Assembly: GCF_037975245.1 (NCBI RefSeq)
Contig: NC_092570.1
Coordinates: 7,049,001 to 7,113,000, forward strand
Direction: 5' to 3'
Source: Apostichopus japonicus
Taxonomy: Eukaryota; Echinodermata; Holothuroidea; Aspidochirotida; Stichopodidae
DNA length: 64,000 nt
Every line of letters starts with the position of its first letter. Within the stretch, counting starts at the first letter, position 1. This document shows, piece by piece, positions 2,881 to 55,498 of this stretch. Under the pieces are notes generated by a model, which was not told the DNA's origin, did no database searches, and saw only the letters and a program-made list of their open reading frames with translations. Position numbers and translations under genes: made by a program.

Positions 2881-4810
2881 TACGATGCCTTATTTGACTT
2901 GTAACTCTAAACCGAGGGTTTAAACTGACTTGTTTTTAAGTTTATGAGTTAAAAAATCTGTTATGCAGAATTGATACATCATGATTATAACATCTTATAA
3001 TGTGTACAATTGATGAAACTTACAAACATAGTGTTGTAATATACTACAGTAAATACTTCTCTTATTATATTCCATTGTGGCCTTTTTGCACTTCTGCAGG
3101 AGTTCCCAATTTAGTTCTCGTTTGTAACAGGGAACCCCTGGGTCTTAGGCTCTTAGGTATCCTTTTGTAGGCCTATGTACCAAATTACCTCTGGAGTTTC
3201 TCGGAAAGAAACCTTTTTTTTTTTTTTTACAAATTTCCAAAATACGAAAATATGACATCCTACCTAGTCAGCACTGTGCTAAGCGAATGGCCTAGCCACC
3301 TCGACGTGTATGTCACCTGTTCATGGCTTGAAATTGGCTATGAATAGTTACTCAAAATATCCATCTCAAAAAGCATCTCAGACAAACCATCCATCTTCAA
3401 TCTTTACCAAAGTGTAAACTTTAACTACATATTGCCTACATTCCGACATTATTGTGTACTTATTTTCAGTATTATACCGTTTATGAACAAATAGAAATGT
3501 TACGAACTTGAAGTTAAACATACCTATTCGTTACCTATTTAACTCCATTCAAGTTCAATTAGAAAATGTAAGCTGAGGCCAATCAAACTGAAAAGCAAAT
3601 TGTACCATCGTAACTTGTTTAAAATTACTCTAGAATGTTACCAAATTGATGTAAAGAATTAATAACAACTAGAAACTACTCCAATATAAAAAACAACATT
3701 CCCTCTTTAAGACATAGCACATACCTTCCAAACAAATGCCGATATCCAGCAAATTGAAAGTTGTAAACTAAGCTACGCCTTTTTTTTTTTTTTTTTGGCA
3801 AACCGATGGTTAGGCTACATTTCCCATTGAATTAGTGTGGTTGTTAGGCTAACATGTGGTCGAAGATTGCAGTTTCCATGGATATTTTTATTTTTTATTT
3901 GCGACACAACTAGAGCGAATTAACAGATGGCTAGGTTTGATTTCCATGTTGACTTAGTGTGAAGTAAGGCTACCATGTGGTCGGAGATTTGTGGGGATTT
4001 TAGGTTATTGTCCCGGTGATTCTGCTTCAAATTTGTTGCGGGATTGTGAGAACTGTTTGCGCGATTCGCGCTGCAACTGCAAACCTAGGTAGCTAAAGCA
4101 AACGCATGTCACAATTAATTTTACACAGACACCTGATATAACGAGGGCGATTTTCTTATATTTCTCTTCTTTTTCGCACCCGTAATTGTGCTTTAGGAGG
4201 GCTTTTTTAGCACTTGCGAGGGCGAATCGTTCATCGCCACCCGCTTATTTCCAACCCTGTCCAGCACATTCGTTAATTCGCGAAATTGGTATTGTTACCA
4301 TGCTTACTGTGCCGAGAAATATGAAGTCACGAACCACGAGGGAAGCAAAATTGGCGACCCTGGCAGCCTAATTTGATGAAATTACATCGTGAAAGACGTA
4401 TAGAGGGTGTCATTATTTTAATATTTCGTAGTAAAAGAACAAACCTTATACATAAGTTGATATTTTCAACTTCCATATGTTTTTGAATAATGATATTTTC
4501 ACCCTTCCATATGTTTTTGAATAATCGGTATGACATAACTGGTATTCCACGTAATTGTTCCGATTATGCAATAATCGTACCGATTCCGATTCCGATTCAG
4601 TTAATCGTTTGAACACTAATTATAACCCTAAGATTGGCATTAGTCTCATTTAGCAGCCGCCAGTCGTTTATTTTTTGTACTTATTTTTGATAATGGAAAA
4701 TCGCATTTTTGATAATGGAAAATCGTATTTTTTTAGAACAAAACGTAAAACCGTATTTTTGACAATTTTCCGTACAAAATACGGCAAAATCGTACTAGTT
4801 GGCATCCCTG
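2684..4810. mobile_element. Putative non-autonomous hAT-like element
   Basis: The left end CAGGGATGCCAAC (2684-2696) is matched by its exact reverse complement GTTGGCATCCCTG at 4798-4810. Subterminal sequence on both sides is rich in 'aaactgtattttt'/'aaaatcgtatttttt' words, also in inverted orientation. The left terminus is tandemly duplicated (period 114 bp; second CAGGGATGCCAAC at 2798). A CAGGG terminus is typical of hAT elements. I see no transposase frame in the 2.1 kb interior, which has imperfect internal repeats near 3805 and 3925 and oligo-T tracts. An 8-bp target duplication is not clear: the flanks share only 'ataca'. The class is an inference from the termini. Confidence 0.55.
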
Positions 4811-17775: not shown

Positions 17776-20700
17776 CTGTAATAATAGATGGAAGAAAATA
17801 AGCGATTCAGAATGAGTCAACATACATTTATTGATGAATAGAAGATTAGCAAAGACGAAATATGAATGAGCTACTAATTATAAATCTAAGTACAAGTTTT
17901 ATATTTGTTTGTTGTAATACTGAGGGTTTAAGCAGATCAAGGAGTGGGGACAGCTGTGAGACAGGTAGCTGTTGTGTGACATCACAGATTATTGTTTAAT
18001 CCATTCTTCTAAGTCCACAAAATGATTTTCAATGGTTTTTTACCCTTGGATGACATTCAAAACTCTTTTTCCTCCAATTATTCTTCAATGAATTGTAAAC
18101 ATTCCATTTGAAGCAATAAACGTCTTAGGATTTCCCATCGAGTTTGATTGTGCTGCATCTGAGAAACTAACCTTATGATCTGTGAACTAGACTACATAGT
18201 CCAGTCACTTTAACTGATGGACCACACTACTTTTTTCAAAGGTCATTTCTCAAAATTTAAAAAAAGTGTTATAAAATTCCAACCTGGACTGATAGCAATG
18301 TGTGTTTTTAATGGTCTACATTGATCAAATTCAATGTTGTGCCTAAAGTTATCCTCTCATACAAGAGAACCCCATCTCGATATGTTTGTCCCTAACTTTA
18401 GATTATGGTTGATTGCATGTAACCTAATTCGGCTAAAATCTTCCACAACTCCAGGAAGTGTATCACATAAGGTGGTCTATGATGTCATTATGGTAGATGA
18501 ACATCAAAAGCATGACATTTCTCAATTTCTTAAATTTTAATTTTAAAAATTTTAAAAATTTTAAAAATTTTAAAAATTTTAAAAATTAAAATTTTTTTTT
18601 TTTTTTTTACATTTTTTACATATTTTAAATTTTCTCAATTTCTTGTTAATTTATCCTTGAAATGAAATACATTTGGAAGTTTGCTTAACTCCATTACCAT
18701 GATGACATCATTCACCTTGCTGTTGCCATGTTGTGCATGTCACAAAATATCTCTACAATTGTGACCAGACTCTATCTGGTGAACACCACAAGCTGTCTGA
18801 TGCAAAGCATGATTTATTGACTATAAAATAATGATCATAATAAAGTTTCCAAATTCACACATAATTACAATGACAGGAACAACAAAAATTATGCTGGCAA
18901 TTAAAAACGATAGAATTTGGATGGAAATGAGATACTTACGTTGTCATCGTCATCTGTTAAGAGTACTTCGTTCCACGCTCTGTTGTACTCTCCTCTCACT
19001 AATGTGCACGCAAGACCGATCCTGTCTGCTAACACCTAAAAGAATCATGATAAGAAATTACGGATTACTTCTCTCACTTGTCTCCATATTGAATAATTAT
19101 GGTACTTTAAAAGCAACAGGTAAAGACCATCAAAAATGATATCATTTACTAAAGGAAATTGATCCCAGTCCACCTATTTTAGATGTGTCCCACAAGATCA
19201 ATTTTCTGTCCCCCCGCCACCCCCCACCCCAGCCACCGCCCAAGGTTTAGAGTTACCGTTTTTGTCTACCTTTCAGAGTAGTGCTCTGTGGTGTGAAACC
19301 CTATGATATTACCACCAAATTAATTTTATGTCACCCCACCCTCCAAACCCCACTCCTATGGCATAGTGATACTGTTGTCAGGTACCTTGAAGAGTAGTGC
19401 TGTGACAGTGGATCCCTCAGTCTATTCCCACTGGATTAGTCATCACACCCCTCTCCCCCCCCCAACTCCCCCCTCCATCTTAGCATAGTGTTATTGTTGT
19501 CAGATTACCGTAAGGAGTAGTGCTCTGTGATAGTGGATCCCTCAGTCCACTGATACTAGATTAATTTCACGTCCCTATCCCCCTCCCTTCCATCTTATCA
19601 TAGTGATATTGTTATCATATACCTTATATAGTAGTGCTCTGTGGTAGTGGACCCATAAGTCTATTCACACTAGATCAATGTCACACCCCTATCCCCCTCC
19701 CTTCCATCTTATCATAGTATTAGTGTATTCAGTTACCTTATATAGTAGTGCTCTGTGATAGTGGATCCCGCGGTCTATCCTGCCGATCGGAATGATGTTA
19801 TTCTTCAACTCGTACTTCAGCTGACTAATGGATAACTCGTAGCTGAAATTTGAAAGCTGCCCTCGCTCGATACTGCCTCCCATTTTCTGACTGACAAATC
19901 TGACGAAAAAGGGAAACGGTAAATGATCATAAGATGAATCCTTACAACAGGTTTACCTGCGACCGTACCTGTTTGCTAAAACTGACAGTGGCAACTACCG
20001 TGAGAGTGAATAGTGACAATTTTCTCTTCAACTGTCACCAGTAGTGTCTAACGAAGCAACTATTACTTCATATGAAACACTACTTCAACCATATCTATGA
20101 TCAATAGGATGACAGCCTAGCCATCTATTAAAATCCACATCTATTAAACCCACATCTATTAAACCCACATCTATATAAGACCCACATCTATTAAAATCCA
20201 CATTGCACTCTGAAATACTCTATATTTCCAACCCATGCTGTTTTACAAACTGAAATTACACTTCTAAAATGTAGTTATAAACTCTAAAATGATTTGAAGT
20301 TGTTAAATCAACCCAAACATGACATCAGGTGATTAGATTATATATAAAGTGTGATGTCAAAGGTCATTTGAGAACAAAACTCCACACAGTTAGCACAGAT
20401 ATGGGGAAATAATTTATCCAGTTTCACATTGCAAAATGCTACACAAAATGGTAAAATTTGCTATAAATATCACTATTCTTGTACACAGGAACCACAGTAT
20501 TTACAAAGAGACAGAAACCAGAACATCCAAAACAGCTACACAAAATTTGAAACACTGAGTTATTCCCTGTGATAGTGTTAACTGAGCAGTGTTTGGGGGG
20601 TGGGGATGGGGAATGGCATGTTATATACCACATACATATCTATACCATTAAATCTATATCCTGACATGATAGTGTCCTGCAGTTCATTGTTTGCTGAAAA

Positions 20701-23700
20701 TTTATCTTCATATTTAGGTCAATAACCAACATCCCAATTTAGCAAGTTTTGAAACCATGAAGATGCAAATCTTTTAAAAACTGGTTAAATATTATGAATA
20801 ATGCATCTGGCAACAAACAGAGTTAGTATAAATGTCATCATGTGCAATTTGAACTGAAAGTGAAAATCAATTTATCCACCGAGGAAAATAAAAATTCTTC
20901 AAATAAGTTTGCAAGTTAGTTAAACCTTTCTAAAAAGGAGGAGAACAATAACAACCAAGCAAAAATTCCAGATTTATCATATTTTAAGACAAAATCATAA
21001 CCAATAATATTACAATATAAATATAGCAATAAATATTATAATAAATTTTTCTTTGAAAAGACCACACCTACTATGACCCACTCCCTGATATAAGGCATTG
21101 TTGACATGGTTACACTATGTTTACATTCAAGCAACCATATCTCAAGTTAGGAACCAGATCTTTGAGATTTTGGGGCTTTCAACCAAACCAGTATAAGCCA
21201 TTTTGCTCTCTTTCTCCCTGTATGCGTGTAGCATTGTCTACCACCCTGATGTTAATTCCTTTTCAACTTTTCCTCACAGAAAGTCAACTTACTGTGCCAG
21301 ACAAATGACCTGTTCCTTGGTGGTCGGTAGCGGGTGTATTTCATCTGTGACGGCGTTGACGTACTCTTCTAGTTTGGAGTCCGACTGCGGTTCATACGGT
21401 GACTGTTGCTGTGACAACAGTGCCTGCTGCTCGGCTAATCTGTCCGCCTCTAATCTCTCCCGTAACTCTCGTTCTTCCCGCTCTCTCTTCGTCTCTCTTT
21501 TGCTGATAAAAAAATTGAAACCAAATAACAACTTCAAAAGGATTTAAAGATGTTGAATAAAACCTTTTGAGACAAAACAAACTGATATATTGAGATAGAA
21601 TCTGTCAGTGACTAATGTAGATATAGATTACCCGAATTAAATTATCTAACCTCTCCTCACCCACCATCTCCACACTTACCTCTCTCTCTCTCTCTATCCA
21701 AAGAAGAAAAAAGAAAAAAAGTATCCTAAGAAAGATCCTATTATATCCATCAGTCATTTCTATGCAAACTTTAATGCATAAATGGATGGAACTTGAAGGA
21801 ATTCTTCTTTGCAGGCGAGCAAATTAAATACATTCAATAAAATAAACAACAGAGAAATAATGTCATCAAATTATCTTTCCCTTTTGCCTTGTAATGGATA
21901 CTTTTTTGTTACATTCACTTTGCTAAGCAAGATTAGAAACTAGACCAGGTTTCCCTTATCGATGAGAAACATCACAAAATCTTTCCGGTCATTTCAACTT
22001 GGACACAGAGGACAAGTTTTATATGCCTGACTTGTAATGACTGACTTACAAAGTGTGACTTGATACAATCAACAATGACTTGATACATCTGACTATGTAT
22101 CACTTATTAGTGATTTGTATGAACTTTTAACATTGCCAATGTTTTCAATTGATAATTCTTCCCTTGACAACTTTACAAACTTTCAATACTTCAGAGACTA
22201 TATTATTTGGTTTATAATTGATACAAAAAGTAGTAAACAGCATTTCATTTAAAGGAAGGTGTGGACTTGGGTTGGTGAAAGGGGTTGTGCGGTGCAAGAG
22301 GTATTCCTGAATCCTACCTTTTTACAGAGGACTTTGAAGGTCTCATACTCGTTTTGGAATCCACTCTGATATCGCCATCGGAAGGAATGGTTGGGACTGG
22401 AGTTACCGTAGGGCTGCTGTTGATTCAAAAAGAGGAAAAATGGATCAGTAACGATATAAGCTTACATCAGCAAAAGAGAAAGTACAGAGTTTATATCAGT
22501 ATCAGTGACACAAAACATTGCCCGGGCCATCGGCTTACAAGTTTGCATTCTTAACTACAATTCAAGTTATGAGAGCACTGTTATGTATGAACATGACACG
22601 GGTGTTGTCATGACAACAGGGGCTAATGGTATAAATGAGCTACAAAACATGTGTCCTTTAGCTTTACCTACTATGGACTTATTCTTACCTTCTTGGCACT
22701 CCACAATTAACCAGTATGGCAGCTTTAGCTTTACCTACTATGGATCTATTCTTACCTTCTTGGCACTCAACAGTTAACCAGTATGACAGCTTTAGCTTGA
22801 CCTACTATGGACCAATTCTTACCTTCTTGGCACTCCACAGTTAACCAGTATGCCAGCTTTAGCTTTACCTACTATGGACTAATTCTTACCTTCTTGGCAC
22901 TCAACAGTTAACCAGTATGACAGCTTTAGCTTGACCTACTATGGACTATTTCTTACCTTCTTGGCACTCCACAGTTCACCAGTATGACTGTTTTAGCTTT
23001 ACCTACTATGGACTAATTCTTACCCTCTTAGCACTCCGCAGTTAACCAGTAACACAGCCTTAGCCTTACCTATTATGGACTAATTCTTACCCTCTTGGCA
23101 CTCCACGGTCAACCAGTATGACAGCTTTAGTTTACCTACTATGGACTAATTCTTACCTTCTTGGCACTCCACAGTTAACAAGTATGACAGGTCTCTTTTG
23201 GTTCACTTCCCTCTTGCTCAGTTCTTCGAGGGTTTGAAACTTTTCATCCGGTCGGATCTATATCAAAGGAATCAAGAAATTTTACAGAATGACATCTCTT
23301 ACTACGGATGAAAAGCAGATAGACAAACATAACATTCAGTTGGGAGATTTGAAAATGCAGTCGGGGAATATTTTGATTGCTCCTCTGAGATCAGATTGCT
23401 CTTCCATACATAGGTTCATGACTTTATGAAAAGGCTTTGAAGAATCGTGCACAAAGAAACGTCTCATGCCGGTAATCTGACCTAGTTTCCAATGAGAACA
23501 GAAGTGTTAGACACCACCATCGATCCCAGAAAATACACACACAGCTTGCTACCGTCGGTAATTACACACTGGTGTACAGTCAATACATGCAGCTATGGTC
23601 AATAACCCCAACACAGTGTACATAACAGCGATGAACATCTCAGGTCTATATAAAAGATAGCAAGGTATCACGTTTCATTACTGTCTGCATTTTGTAGCGA

Positions 23701-26700: not shown

Positions 26701-29700
26701 TAACATGACCATCACTAACAAACCTTGAGTGCAGTGGATCAATTAAAGCCCCAACAACTCCTTTCTTCTGTATATCCGCTCTCAAAATCTCGTCCGTCGC
26801 CATGTTAGTCAGAACCTGTGCTGCATTAGCCTGAGTGGCCTCTCTGGTGGAACTGAGCAGGCCAATCAGGGGTTCCACTCCGTTCCTATCTCCGATCTCT
26901 ACGCTGTTTTGTACCTGGCCAGAGGTGAGGTTAGCCAGGGCCAAGGACGAAGACTCGGCTACGTCCAGGTTATCACTGTTCAGAAGCTTGATGAGAGGGA
27001 CGATGCCGTCTTCCAGAGAAAAGTGTTAAAAGGAGAAATAAATTTGTACAAAAAGAGCAGAAACGTATTTATAATAAAGGAGAGGAATATATTTCGCAAG
27101 CGGATTTTTATCCGGAAAGTACTTACAGATTCGTTCGATAATAATCCGACTATTTAACGCAGAAATAATGAATAACGTCATCACTTAATGGTTATTATAC
27201 TGGAATTATCGTTACGATCATGAGAACTGTTAGCATTAGCACCATCAGGAGGTCAAAAACTTGTCTGTGTTGTAATTAAATGCTTGTTGATCGGTGGTTT
27301 CGTTTGTAATCATATTTATTGATTTCTTTTTAACAGTCACGTATAAAGCATGTATTTTGAATATGCAAACAATACTAATGCAGATGTATACACAATATAC
27401 CAAAACTCTAGCAGTTAACATTTATTCATCGCATTCCATACTGTTTGTGTATTGTTTGTCAAGTTATATGAACCATTAGAATATATATAATATATGATGT
27501 ATAAGATATAAGATATTATATACAATATATAATATATATATATAATAGATGATAAAGATATTTGTGGATCTGCATCACTGACATATGTCACATCTTAACT
27601 CATTGCTCAGAAAAATAACAACCAAAGTCCCCTTTTTATTCCCACCCCCTGGTCGATCACAAACCCCCCCCCCCCGGTCCAACATGCCTGGCTACCTACC
27701 AAACTCGGCAATGACACTCCTTGAGGCTGCAGTCTCTGCCATGATAGCCAGTGCCTGGGCAGCGGAGGCCTGGACGTCCTGGCTGTCCGATTCAAGCAGG
27801 ACAATTAACGTCCTCTCTCCTTCCTGCTCGTGAAATATCTTGCAATTCTCACCTGACCGGAAAGGAAAATTGTGTTATCACGAGTAAATACCTTTAAGTC
27901 AGCGCACAAATTAAAAAAAACAAAAAAACAATGCATCAATGTTCACTAAGAAATAAATAAAATCACAGCCTGTGAAAACTAACAGTTAAAAAATCAAAGG
28001 CAAAATCTCTGTACTAGCTCTTCCCGCCTCCGTCCTCTTACCCCCTCCCCCAACTCTGTGCCACCTCCAATCCTAATCCATGAAAGAAACAACAAGATAA
28101 GTCAAAACCATCTTAATTATTCTTCTTATAATGGATCATGTGATTAAATTTAAAGGGTGTGAAGACTCGCGCATCTAATGCCGGTAATTTGACCTAGTTT
28201 CGAATGAGGTGTAACAGAAGTGTTAAACACCACCATCGATCCCAGAAAAATACACACACAGCTTGCTACCGTTGGTAATTAGACACTAGTGTACTGTCAG
28301 TACATACAGCTGCGGTCAATACCCACAGCACAGTATACAAACCATACAGCGATGGACCTCTCAGGTCCAGCTAAAGATAACAATTAAGGAATCACATTTC
28401 ATTACTGTCTGCATTTTGTAGCGACACAAACAAAACGTCACTTGCAAGCAACAGAAAGTTAACTTTTTCAGATGGCCGCACGCGGTTTGGGGCGAGTCTT
28501 CAATGCCTTTAAAGGCCATAAGGATTATAGCAAAATTTTCTTACCATTTCTGGCCGCTCTGGCAATTGCCTTGGCAGAGTTCATCTGGATTTCAGGGATC
28601 GTAGATTCGGCTGCGAATGTCAGCAACTTTTGTAGCCCTCCTGTACTCTGTATCAATTCTAAACTTTCTATGTCTTCCAGGCAATTGGATAGAACAAGAA
28701 GGGCATGGACGTGAAGTTCTTCAAACTCCTGTATCGAAAAAGGAAAAGATGGATTTCATTTCATTTGAAAATACAACATCACATATATATGCAAGTAGAG
28801 AAATGAATAATCAGAGAATGAAATTTCCTGAATGAAAATAGTGAAATTGAAGAACCAACCCTTCTTGAAATTCGTAACTTGAGTCAGTGCTCCCAAAGCT
28901 TGACCTACTCTCAAAATATTGATGTTCTCTGACTTTTTAATGGAGGGGTGGGGGGGGGTGAGAGGGAGGCCTGCAGGGAGGGAAATGAAATCAGGTACTT
29001 AATATTGTTTAATTGAAGCAACCTCCAGAAGGAATGTTGCATGTACCAATATTTACTGCTCCAGAAGAGAGAGAATAAACTGAATATGTGGTTACCAAGT
29101 ATATATTTTAAAGGAAGCCATGGGGATGTCCCACAGCAAGAAGAGTTAGTATGCCAATGCTCCATACACCTACTAGGCAGGAAACAGCATGTCATGCAAT
29201 TGGTCATTTTAGTACATGGAGCTTTCCTTTATAACACTCCACATCACAATACAACCCCCCCCCACCTCATTCCCCCATCCCTGTCCCAATAAAAAGGAGA
29301 TATGATAACTTACTTTAGTTCCAACAAACTCCAACAGCTTTTCTAGTCCCTCCAACTCTCTGAGGGTTTCTCTGTTGTCTGGGTCCTGGGTGCACAGAAT
29401 CAGACTCTTGAGGGCCAGCTCCTGTATCACCGGGTACTCTGACTTCAGAAGATCTAACAGAGGCTCAAGGCCTTGAACATTTCTGCAAAAAAAAAGAGTA
29501 AAATTTTCAGGAAATGTTAAGAAATTTTCAAAATAACTCAACCAGCTGCTTGATATTCAGGGATGAGCCTGGGTTAAAAAAAAATCACGGAACTTTGCAA
29601 AATTTGCGGTATAGGCTCCAGTTTGCGTATGCTACAGTGTTTTAGGATAATAGTTTTTATCCTCGAGGCAGAAAAGAAATCACAGATATTCCGCTAATTC

Positions 29701-37894: not shown

Positions 37895-38884
37895 TCAAAG
37901 CTTGGAATTGGAAGTTAAAACCATTGTATGAAGTTTCATTCTTAAAATACACACCTGGCAGATAGAGGTTGTCATCAGCTTGATGTAACAAATACTAACC
38001 ATTTCCTTTGTCTTTTGAAGTATCATAATGCATTAAGGATGAAGCATGTCTAGCATCAAATATTAGAAGGGCTTTGGTTGGGCCGTTCATGTGGCTCTTG
38101 GGATTAACGAGAAATGGTTATCTTGTCTGTCTGTCTTTAACTGCTGGATCGAATGTGACCCTACTCACTGCTGCATCCTGGATTGTTTTAATTTGTCCTC
38201 AATGCAATCATATAAAGAAGAGACGGTGTGCACAGACAAGAAATTTCAACAGTTTTAAGGGTAGCTAATAGCAACTATCTTTAAACATCATAATTACAAT
38301 AGTATTACCTTAAAGGCAAGAAGACTAGCCCAAAGTGCAGCCGTCTGATAAAGTTAACTTTCCATTGTTTGCAAGTGAAGTGTTTTGGTGTCACTACAAA
38401 ATGCAGACAGTAATGAAACGTGATACCTTGTTATCTTTAGCTGGACCTGAGATGTCCATCGCTGTATCATTTGTACACTGTGCTGTGGGTATCGACCGCT
38501 GCTGTATGTACTGACTGTACACTAGTGTCTAATTACCGACGGTAGCAAGCTGTGTGTGTATATCTGGGATCGATGGTGATGTCTTACACTTCTGTTGCAC
38601 CTCATTCGAAACTAGGTGAGATTACCGGCATTAGACGTTTCTTTTTTTTTGCGAGTCTTCACACCCTTTAAGATTCTGGTCTATCATAAAATACTGAAAG
38701 ACTTGGGCTGTTCAGTTGGGGGTGTTTATGTGATGCTTTGGATTTACAAAAATATATACCTTTGCAGCCTGCCATTAGCTGCCAACTTTACTGTTGCATT
38801 ATTACAATATTGTGTCCTAGCTGCAATCATATAGGGTGATGGTGGGATCGGTTTTACAATTTATATTTTCATATGCAAGGAAAT
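37895..38884 (+). other. SDHAF2: SDHAF2 downstream region / possible 3' UTR
   Basis: I noticed no canonical AATAAA before 38885. If that signal is used, the MITE copy at 38310-38671 would be inside the 3' UTR. Confidence 0.35.
38310..38671 (-). mobile_element. Dispersed ~365-bp TIR element (MITE), copy C
   Basis: Reverse-orientation copy of the family at 28149-28513. The ends are TTAAAGGCAAGAAGACT and GCGAGTCTTCACACCCTTTAA. The interior words match in reverse complement ('gctacaaaatgcagacagta' type, 'ggtagcaagctgtgtgtgta', 'gggatcgatggtg'). Confidence 0.9.

Positions 38885-42037: not shown

Positions 42038-55498
<13,461 letters not shown>

Follow-up and report, generated by a model that had tools for sequence, protein, structure and literature searches.

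The ARMC3-like gene in the 64,000-nt window of the Apostichopus japonicus genome analysed here (contig NC_092570.1, positions 7,049,001 to 7,113,000) carries a minisatellite that begins at the junction of exon 13 and intron 13 and runs on into the intron, copying the 5' splice site seven times. This array is real, and it is an unremarkable case of an already known class, the "mirages", which is common in this genome. What is new is the abundance of such junction arrays in a sea cucumber. We infer with good confidence that the ARMC3 array is a mirage-type neutral minisatellite, produced by tandem duplication across the exon-intron junction, and that the first donor, the one attached to the exon, is normally used.

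The array at ARMC3 exon 13

Tandem Repeats Finder places the array at 22656-23190 on the minus strand, with 8.0 copies of a 67-bp unit, 89% matches and a score of 872; the units were also aligned with gaps. According to motif positions and the exon 13 model, the real 5' splice site of intron 13 is the GTAAGAA at 23150-23156 (minus strand), which starts at 23156. Seven decoy donors, located between 22682 and 23090 (minus strand) by motif positions and unit alignment, start at 23090, 23023, 22956, 22889, 22822, 22755 and 22688; the first start-to-start distance is 66 bp and the other six are 67 bp. Each unit joins about 34 nt of the end of exon 13 to about 33 nt of intron 13. Unit 1 consists of the 3' end of exon 13 and the real donor, which supports the origin from that junction proposed in the first-pass annotation of this stretch.

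The copy number and motif counts of that annotation were also reproduced. Eight units at a spacing of about 67 bp run from the junction into the intron, and GTAAGAA is kept in 7/7 extra copies, five of which have the exact junction AAGAAG/GTAAGAA (the slash marks the splice boundary or its copy) while the remaining two read AGAGG/GTAAGAA. The span it gave, 22652-23257, does contain the array but is too long: the array stops at 23190, and 23257 is the start of exon 13. The description of the decoys as identical or nearly identical to the real donor is borne out by predicted U1 pairing: five decoys equal the real donor at -9.5 kcal/mol, and the other two reach -8.9 kcal/mol. An additional donor-like site inside the units, TAG/GTAAAG, falls short of the main donor in strength in every unit but unit 2. 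Intron 13 spans about 23156-22417 (minus strand, acceptor read by eye), so that the array occupies most of it.

The gene, on the minus strand, is ARMC3 as first named: in Pfam the exons, once joined, hit Arm repeats with E 3.1e-39 and, downstream of the exon 13 junction, the EDR1/CTR1/ARMC3 domain with E 2.8e-25. In an 802-residue protein join, partly composed by eye, exon 13 ends at residue 612 and the EDR1/CTR1/ARMC3 match covers residues 685-788. Exon 13 (23157-23257, minus strand, 101 nt) was modelled from an open frame that continues exon 12 in phase, an AG acceptor, the GTAAGAA donor at 23156 and the Pfam matches. It starts in phase 0 and closes on the two bases AG, its terminal sequence being ...GTGCCAAGAAG/GTAAGAA, so that reading through the donor gives AGG TAA. 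The choice of any later donor would therefore carry this TAA into the ARMC3 message, upstream of the C-terminal domain, as the earlier description had it. Exon 14 (22318-22416, minus strand, boundaries by eye) has two open frames; one extends exon 13 from the first donor and leads on to exon 15. Because read-through of exon 13 meets a stop at once, the first donor alone leads into exon 14.

The gapped alignment also gives some indication of how the array evolved. Relative to the consensus, unit 1, the real junction, has a single substitution and a one-base deletion, units 2 and 3 have six changes each, and units 4 to 8 have one to four. Identity of units 2 and 3 to the other units is 85-90%, and that of units 4 to 8 among themselves 88-96%. 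Variants are common to alternate units (4 and 6, 5 and 7), as though copying had proceeded in blocks of two units, which suggests past multi-unit exchange. Of the 67 columns 23 are variable, 13/34 on the exon side and 10/33 on the intron side, and the copied exon part is therefore not specially conserved. Overall, the pattern resembles routine minisatellite turnover, and nothing in the alignment suggests that the copied exon part has been protected.

Our proposal is that a tandem duplication captured the terminal ~34 nt of exon 13 together with the first ~33 nt of the intron, and that unequal exchange or slippage later expanded the copies to eight units. The spliceosome would normally pick the first donor, the one preceded by the complete exon and its acceptor, and exon 13 would therefore not be enlarged; the intronic copies would leave with the spliced-out intron. 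The array would thus be tolerated, not put to use. Two other origins were considered and rejected. A dispersed origin of the unit is not indicated by a DNA search of the 671.6-Mb assembly, which skips very common words and found the array at one place. Intron gain by duplication of AGGT does not fit units that hold about 33 nt of intron besides the exon part, or the single intron between exons 13 and 14. The array had no match among phage records, as expected.

Junction arrays elsewhere in the genome

Junction-seeded minisatellites had been called unusual in the first-pass annotation. This was not upheld: two are present in ARMC3 itself, 22 of 51 arrays sampled across the genome are junction-seeded, and the class is already known as mirages (PMC3087553). 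The second ARMC3 array, 114 bp x 2.7 at 19470-19778 on the minus strand (Tandem Repeats Finder), spans a junction whose donor, GTAACTG at about 19736, follows ...HRALLYK; the other two donor copies are altered to GTATATG and GTAATCT.

The genome was searched for three AAGGTAAG or CAGGTAAG motifs at set distances, with reversed motifs as a control. Overlapping places numbered 275 for the AAGGTAAG triple (180 reversed), 230 for the same triple at wider spacing (198 reversed) and 456 for the CAGGTAAG triple (168 reversed); these are counts of overlapping places rather than arrays, in which a few long arrays dominate, and the reversed motifs differ in base order. Among the matches listed, 51 arrays were sampled, the ARMC3 array not being one of them: 22 from the AAGGTAAG search, 22 more at wider spacing and 7 from the CAGGTAAG search. 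Calls were based on an open frame, an acceptor, a coding score and inspection, and were not blind. The 22 of these 51 donor-motif arrays judged to begin at the donor of a coding exon comprise 12/22 in batch 1 (L001-L005, L008, L009, L011, L012, L020-L022) and 10/29 in batch 2 (L024, L031, L033, L034, L035, L037, L038, L041, L048, L051), the uncertain L017 being counted as non-junction.

ARMC3 and 18 of the 22 judged arrays were tabulated in detail, L008, L035, L041 and L048 having been judged from the sequence view only. The tabulated arrays hold 3 to about 29 donor-like copies each (lower bounds, as batch 2 stretches are incomplete). Their periods are both in and out of frame, and the decoys mostly match the real donor in strength. 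The ungapped copy of the exon part is short or zero in L002 (0 nt), L031 (6 nt), L022 (8 nt), L033 (9 nt) and L020 (10 nt, from a degenerate first copy), and these calls therefore lean more on the first donor than on a copied stretch of exon.

Several of the host genes belong to conserved families. Pfam matches with E below 0.001 were obtained for 11/18 exons sent (the talin- and LDHD-like ones with neighbouring exons), including AAA/NTPase, talin, FAD-linked oxidase, Bcl-2, BEACH, KRI1, beta-CASP, gp78 G2BR, DUF4461 and Rubicon; one of the 11, an oxysterol-binding match at L004, is below Pfam's own cut-off. A weak condensin match was found in the PDB for L038 (E 0.0039). Family names are those of Pfam and the PDB, whereas LDHD, NCAPD2, WDR81 and TTC17 are what we take the genes at some of these loci to be. 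As in ARMC3, the LDHD-like gene (L011) has another junction array, at its next exon (donor-strand 3192-3401, donor TCT/GTAAGTC), with five GTAAGTC donors at 45/46-bp spacing within the stretch examined. Junction arrays were also met in a sample drawn without the donor motif: among 28 kinase loci obtained by family search, with arrays inspected at L154, L160 and L161, at least one has a junction array. This is L161 (1501-2354, exon and array), where about 16 units of 31 bp follow from the kinase exon donor ...VGVICYTL/GTAAGT.

Two of the arrays have features of their own. In L020 (donor-strand 1262-1500) the Bcl-2 exon's own donor, GTTATATTA, is weak by U1 pairing and a strong copy lies downstream, making this a candidate for possible donor turnover within an array. 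L003 (donor-strand 2506-2700) is a 33-bp junction array with a read-through open for 68 codons; use of a downstream donor, if it occurs, would add 11-residue repeats in frame.

Relation to known systems

The name "mirages" comes from amphioxus Adh3 (Canestro 2002, as cited) and the globin genes BflGb6 and BflGb9 (PMC3087553). The amphioxus elements are described there as minisatellite-like duplications across an exon-intron boundary, in which many units carry copied splice signals and the inner units are homogenised, while splicing seems to proceed normally (PMC3087553). The ARMC3 array likewise consists of tandem minisatellite-like units, each made of an exon end and the adjoining intron with its splice signal. 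It differs in phylum and gene, in being donor-side with a 67-bp unit, and in belonging to a genome with many such arrays. Length polymorphism is reported in amphioxus (PMC3087553), whereas the ARMC3 array is known from one assembly. Mirages, reported from cephalochordates, are now extended to an echinoderm, and the ARMC3 locus is one instance of a common process. The class has a human relative in the minisatellite of IFI6 (6-16), reportedly described by Turri et al. in 1995, and De Grassi and Ciccarelli reportedly described internal tandem repeats located where exons meet introns in segmental duplications of the human genome.

Both human systems differ from the ARMC3 array. In IFI6, two downstream repeat units are reported to serve as splice donors (PMC4526556), while in ARMC3 decoy use would truncate the protein. 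The minisatellites at exon-intron boundaries of human segmental duplications reportedly alter splicing, and are recent, variable, located in paralogues and tied to new introns (PMC2812944); the ARMC3 array is found at one place in the genome, with no new intron indicated. No echinoderm mirages were found in searches of open-access literature, whose coverage leaves out most subscription papers. Choice among identical neighbouring donors has been studied mostly with artificial minigenes. With several arrays in conserved genes, this genome offers a natural test set for that choice.

Choice of donor

In two genes the protein joined from the first donor agrees with known homologues. That of the LDHD-like gene aligns gap-free to D-lactate dehydrogenase (E 5.4e-34, a solved homologue), and that of the talin-like gene aligns 196 query residues over 195 of talin-1 (E 1.2e-75; site of the one-residue difference not seen). 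A stop occurs within 24 codons or fewer past the first donor in 17/19 tabulated arrays, the exceptions being L003, with its 68 open codons, and L034, with no stop within the stretch examined. Finally, amphioxus RT-PCR (reverse transcription and polymerase chain reaction) is reported to suggest that regular splicing is undisturbed by mirages (PMC3087553). These three indirect lines favour the first donor as the one probably used.

Selection on the decoy donors was considered and is not supported. In batch 1 the donor/flank mismatch ratio does not separate the 12 junction arrays from the 10 non-junction ones (p = 0.82, both sets having been picked by at least three perfect motifs), and decoy donors are neither retained nor purged beyond the motif in non-junction arrays.

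Alternative explanations

Some observations weigh against a neutral array whose first donor is used. Arrays seem to begin at donors more often than single motif sites lie at them, an excess that is not obviously neutral; GTAAGAA is intact in 8/8 units of the ARMC3 array; and leakage to the decoys is possible by the IFI6 precedent. The first of these could mean that minisatellites are preferentially born or kept at donors, for example through co-transcriptional exposure of DNA or because additional U1 binding is advantageous. As a control, 58 of 60 single AAGGTAAG sites were judged (L125 and L126, stretches taken from the opposite side of their minus-strand sites, were dropped, and six AAGGTAAG sites in close pairs were left out). 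Coding donors were found at 10/58, or 13/58 with doubtful ones, compared with 22/51 arrays (p = 0.0035 and p = 0.025, respectively); for each array the best-scoring of several copies counted, and the scoring routine differed slightly from that for the singles, neither set was judged blind, and of the singles only L068 was sent to Pfam. By score-only cut the comparison is 15/51 to 8/58 (p = 0.06), and for batch 2 alone 10/29 to 13/58 (p = 0.30). A modest excess of arrays at donors is possible, but it is not established because the judgement was not blind. The genome counts given above lean the same way, as do places per motif occurrence, which are 1.04% for the AAGGTAAG triple (0.43% reversed) and 0.10% for the acceptor-like TTTTCAGG triple (0.42% reversed), with the same limits of overlapping places, dominant long arrays and base order.

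A donor/acceptor asymmetry was also considered, on the idea that the first site wins and acceptor arrays should be purged. The raw place counts lean towards such an asymmetry, but they count places rather than arrays. The acceptor sample comprised 13 TTTTCAGG arrays and 20 single TTTTCAGG sites, with two sites at the start of C1 left out; in L095 and L104 the last copy is at the end of the stretch examined, the sequence beyond being outside the sample. A coding-like exon follows the last TTTTCAGG copy in 2-3/13 arrays (L092, L103, perhaps L099) and the single site in 1/20; one more single, L116, qualifies by score but is reverse transcriptase-like by eye. The asymmetry is not supported in this sample (3/13 arrays vs 1/20 singles, p = 0.28). 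In L092 and L103 the last TTTTCAGG unit abuts the coding-like exon, and both are candidate acceptor-side mirages. Junction arrays are therefore not confined to donors, and donors may not be special; we regard a preference for them as unlikely. A large set of donor mirages in conserved genes that would routinely confront the spliceosome with runs of identical 5' splice sites, with donor-biased birth or retention and some decoys used at a regulated level, is quite unlikely.

For ARMC3 itself, the decoys might be used at a regulated level, giving a truncated protein (...VNCGVPRR*, without the EDR1/CTR1/ARMC3 domain) or mRNA decay and so tuning output. Seven decoys about equal in strength to the real donor by U1 pairing, and the same immediate stop from every one of them, would suit such a role, and the use of downstream units in IFI6 (PMC4526556) is a precedent. 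The invariance of all seven GTAAGAA columns points the same way, although weakly, its uncorrected chance being 0.044. Yet motif conservation is no higher in junction than in non-junction arrays, the further donors of the second ARMC3 array have changed, and RT-PCR in amphioxus reportedly suggests that mirages do not interfere with splicing (PMC3087553). We consider regulated use very unlikely. That the copy number has been inflated or collapsed in assembly is more improbable still, even though tandem arrays are error-prone and an aberrantly assembled mirage is reported in the amphioxus draft (PMC3087553). The units are 85-96% identical to each other, and these differences mean that the eight did not arise from a single unit being duplicated in error; the published A. 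japonicus genome, if the same assembly, is also HiFi-based (PMC10344927).

Recurring peptides in the window

Similar peptides (...QRWTSQVQLKIT...) recur in the window at about 23424-23674, 28150-28540, 38305-38528 and 44033-44245, and also in L002. Their recurrence suggests that the window contains a dispersed repeat.
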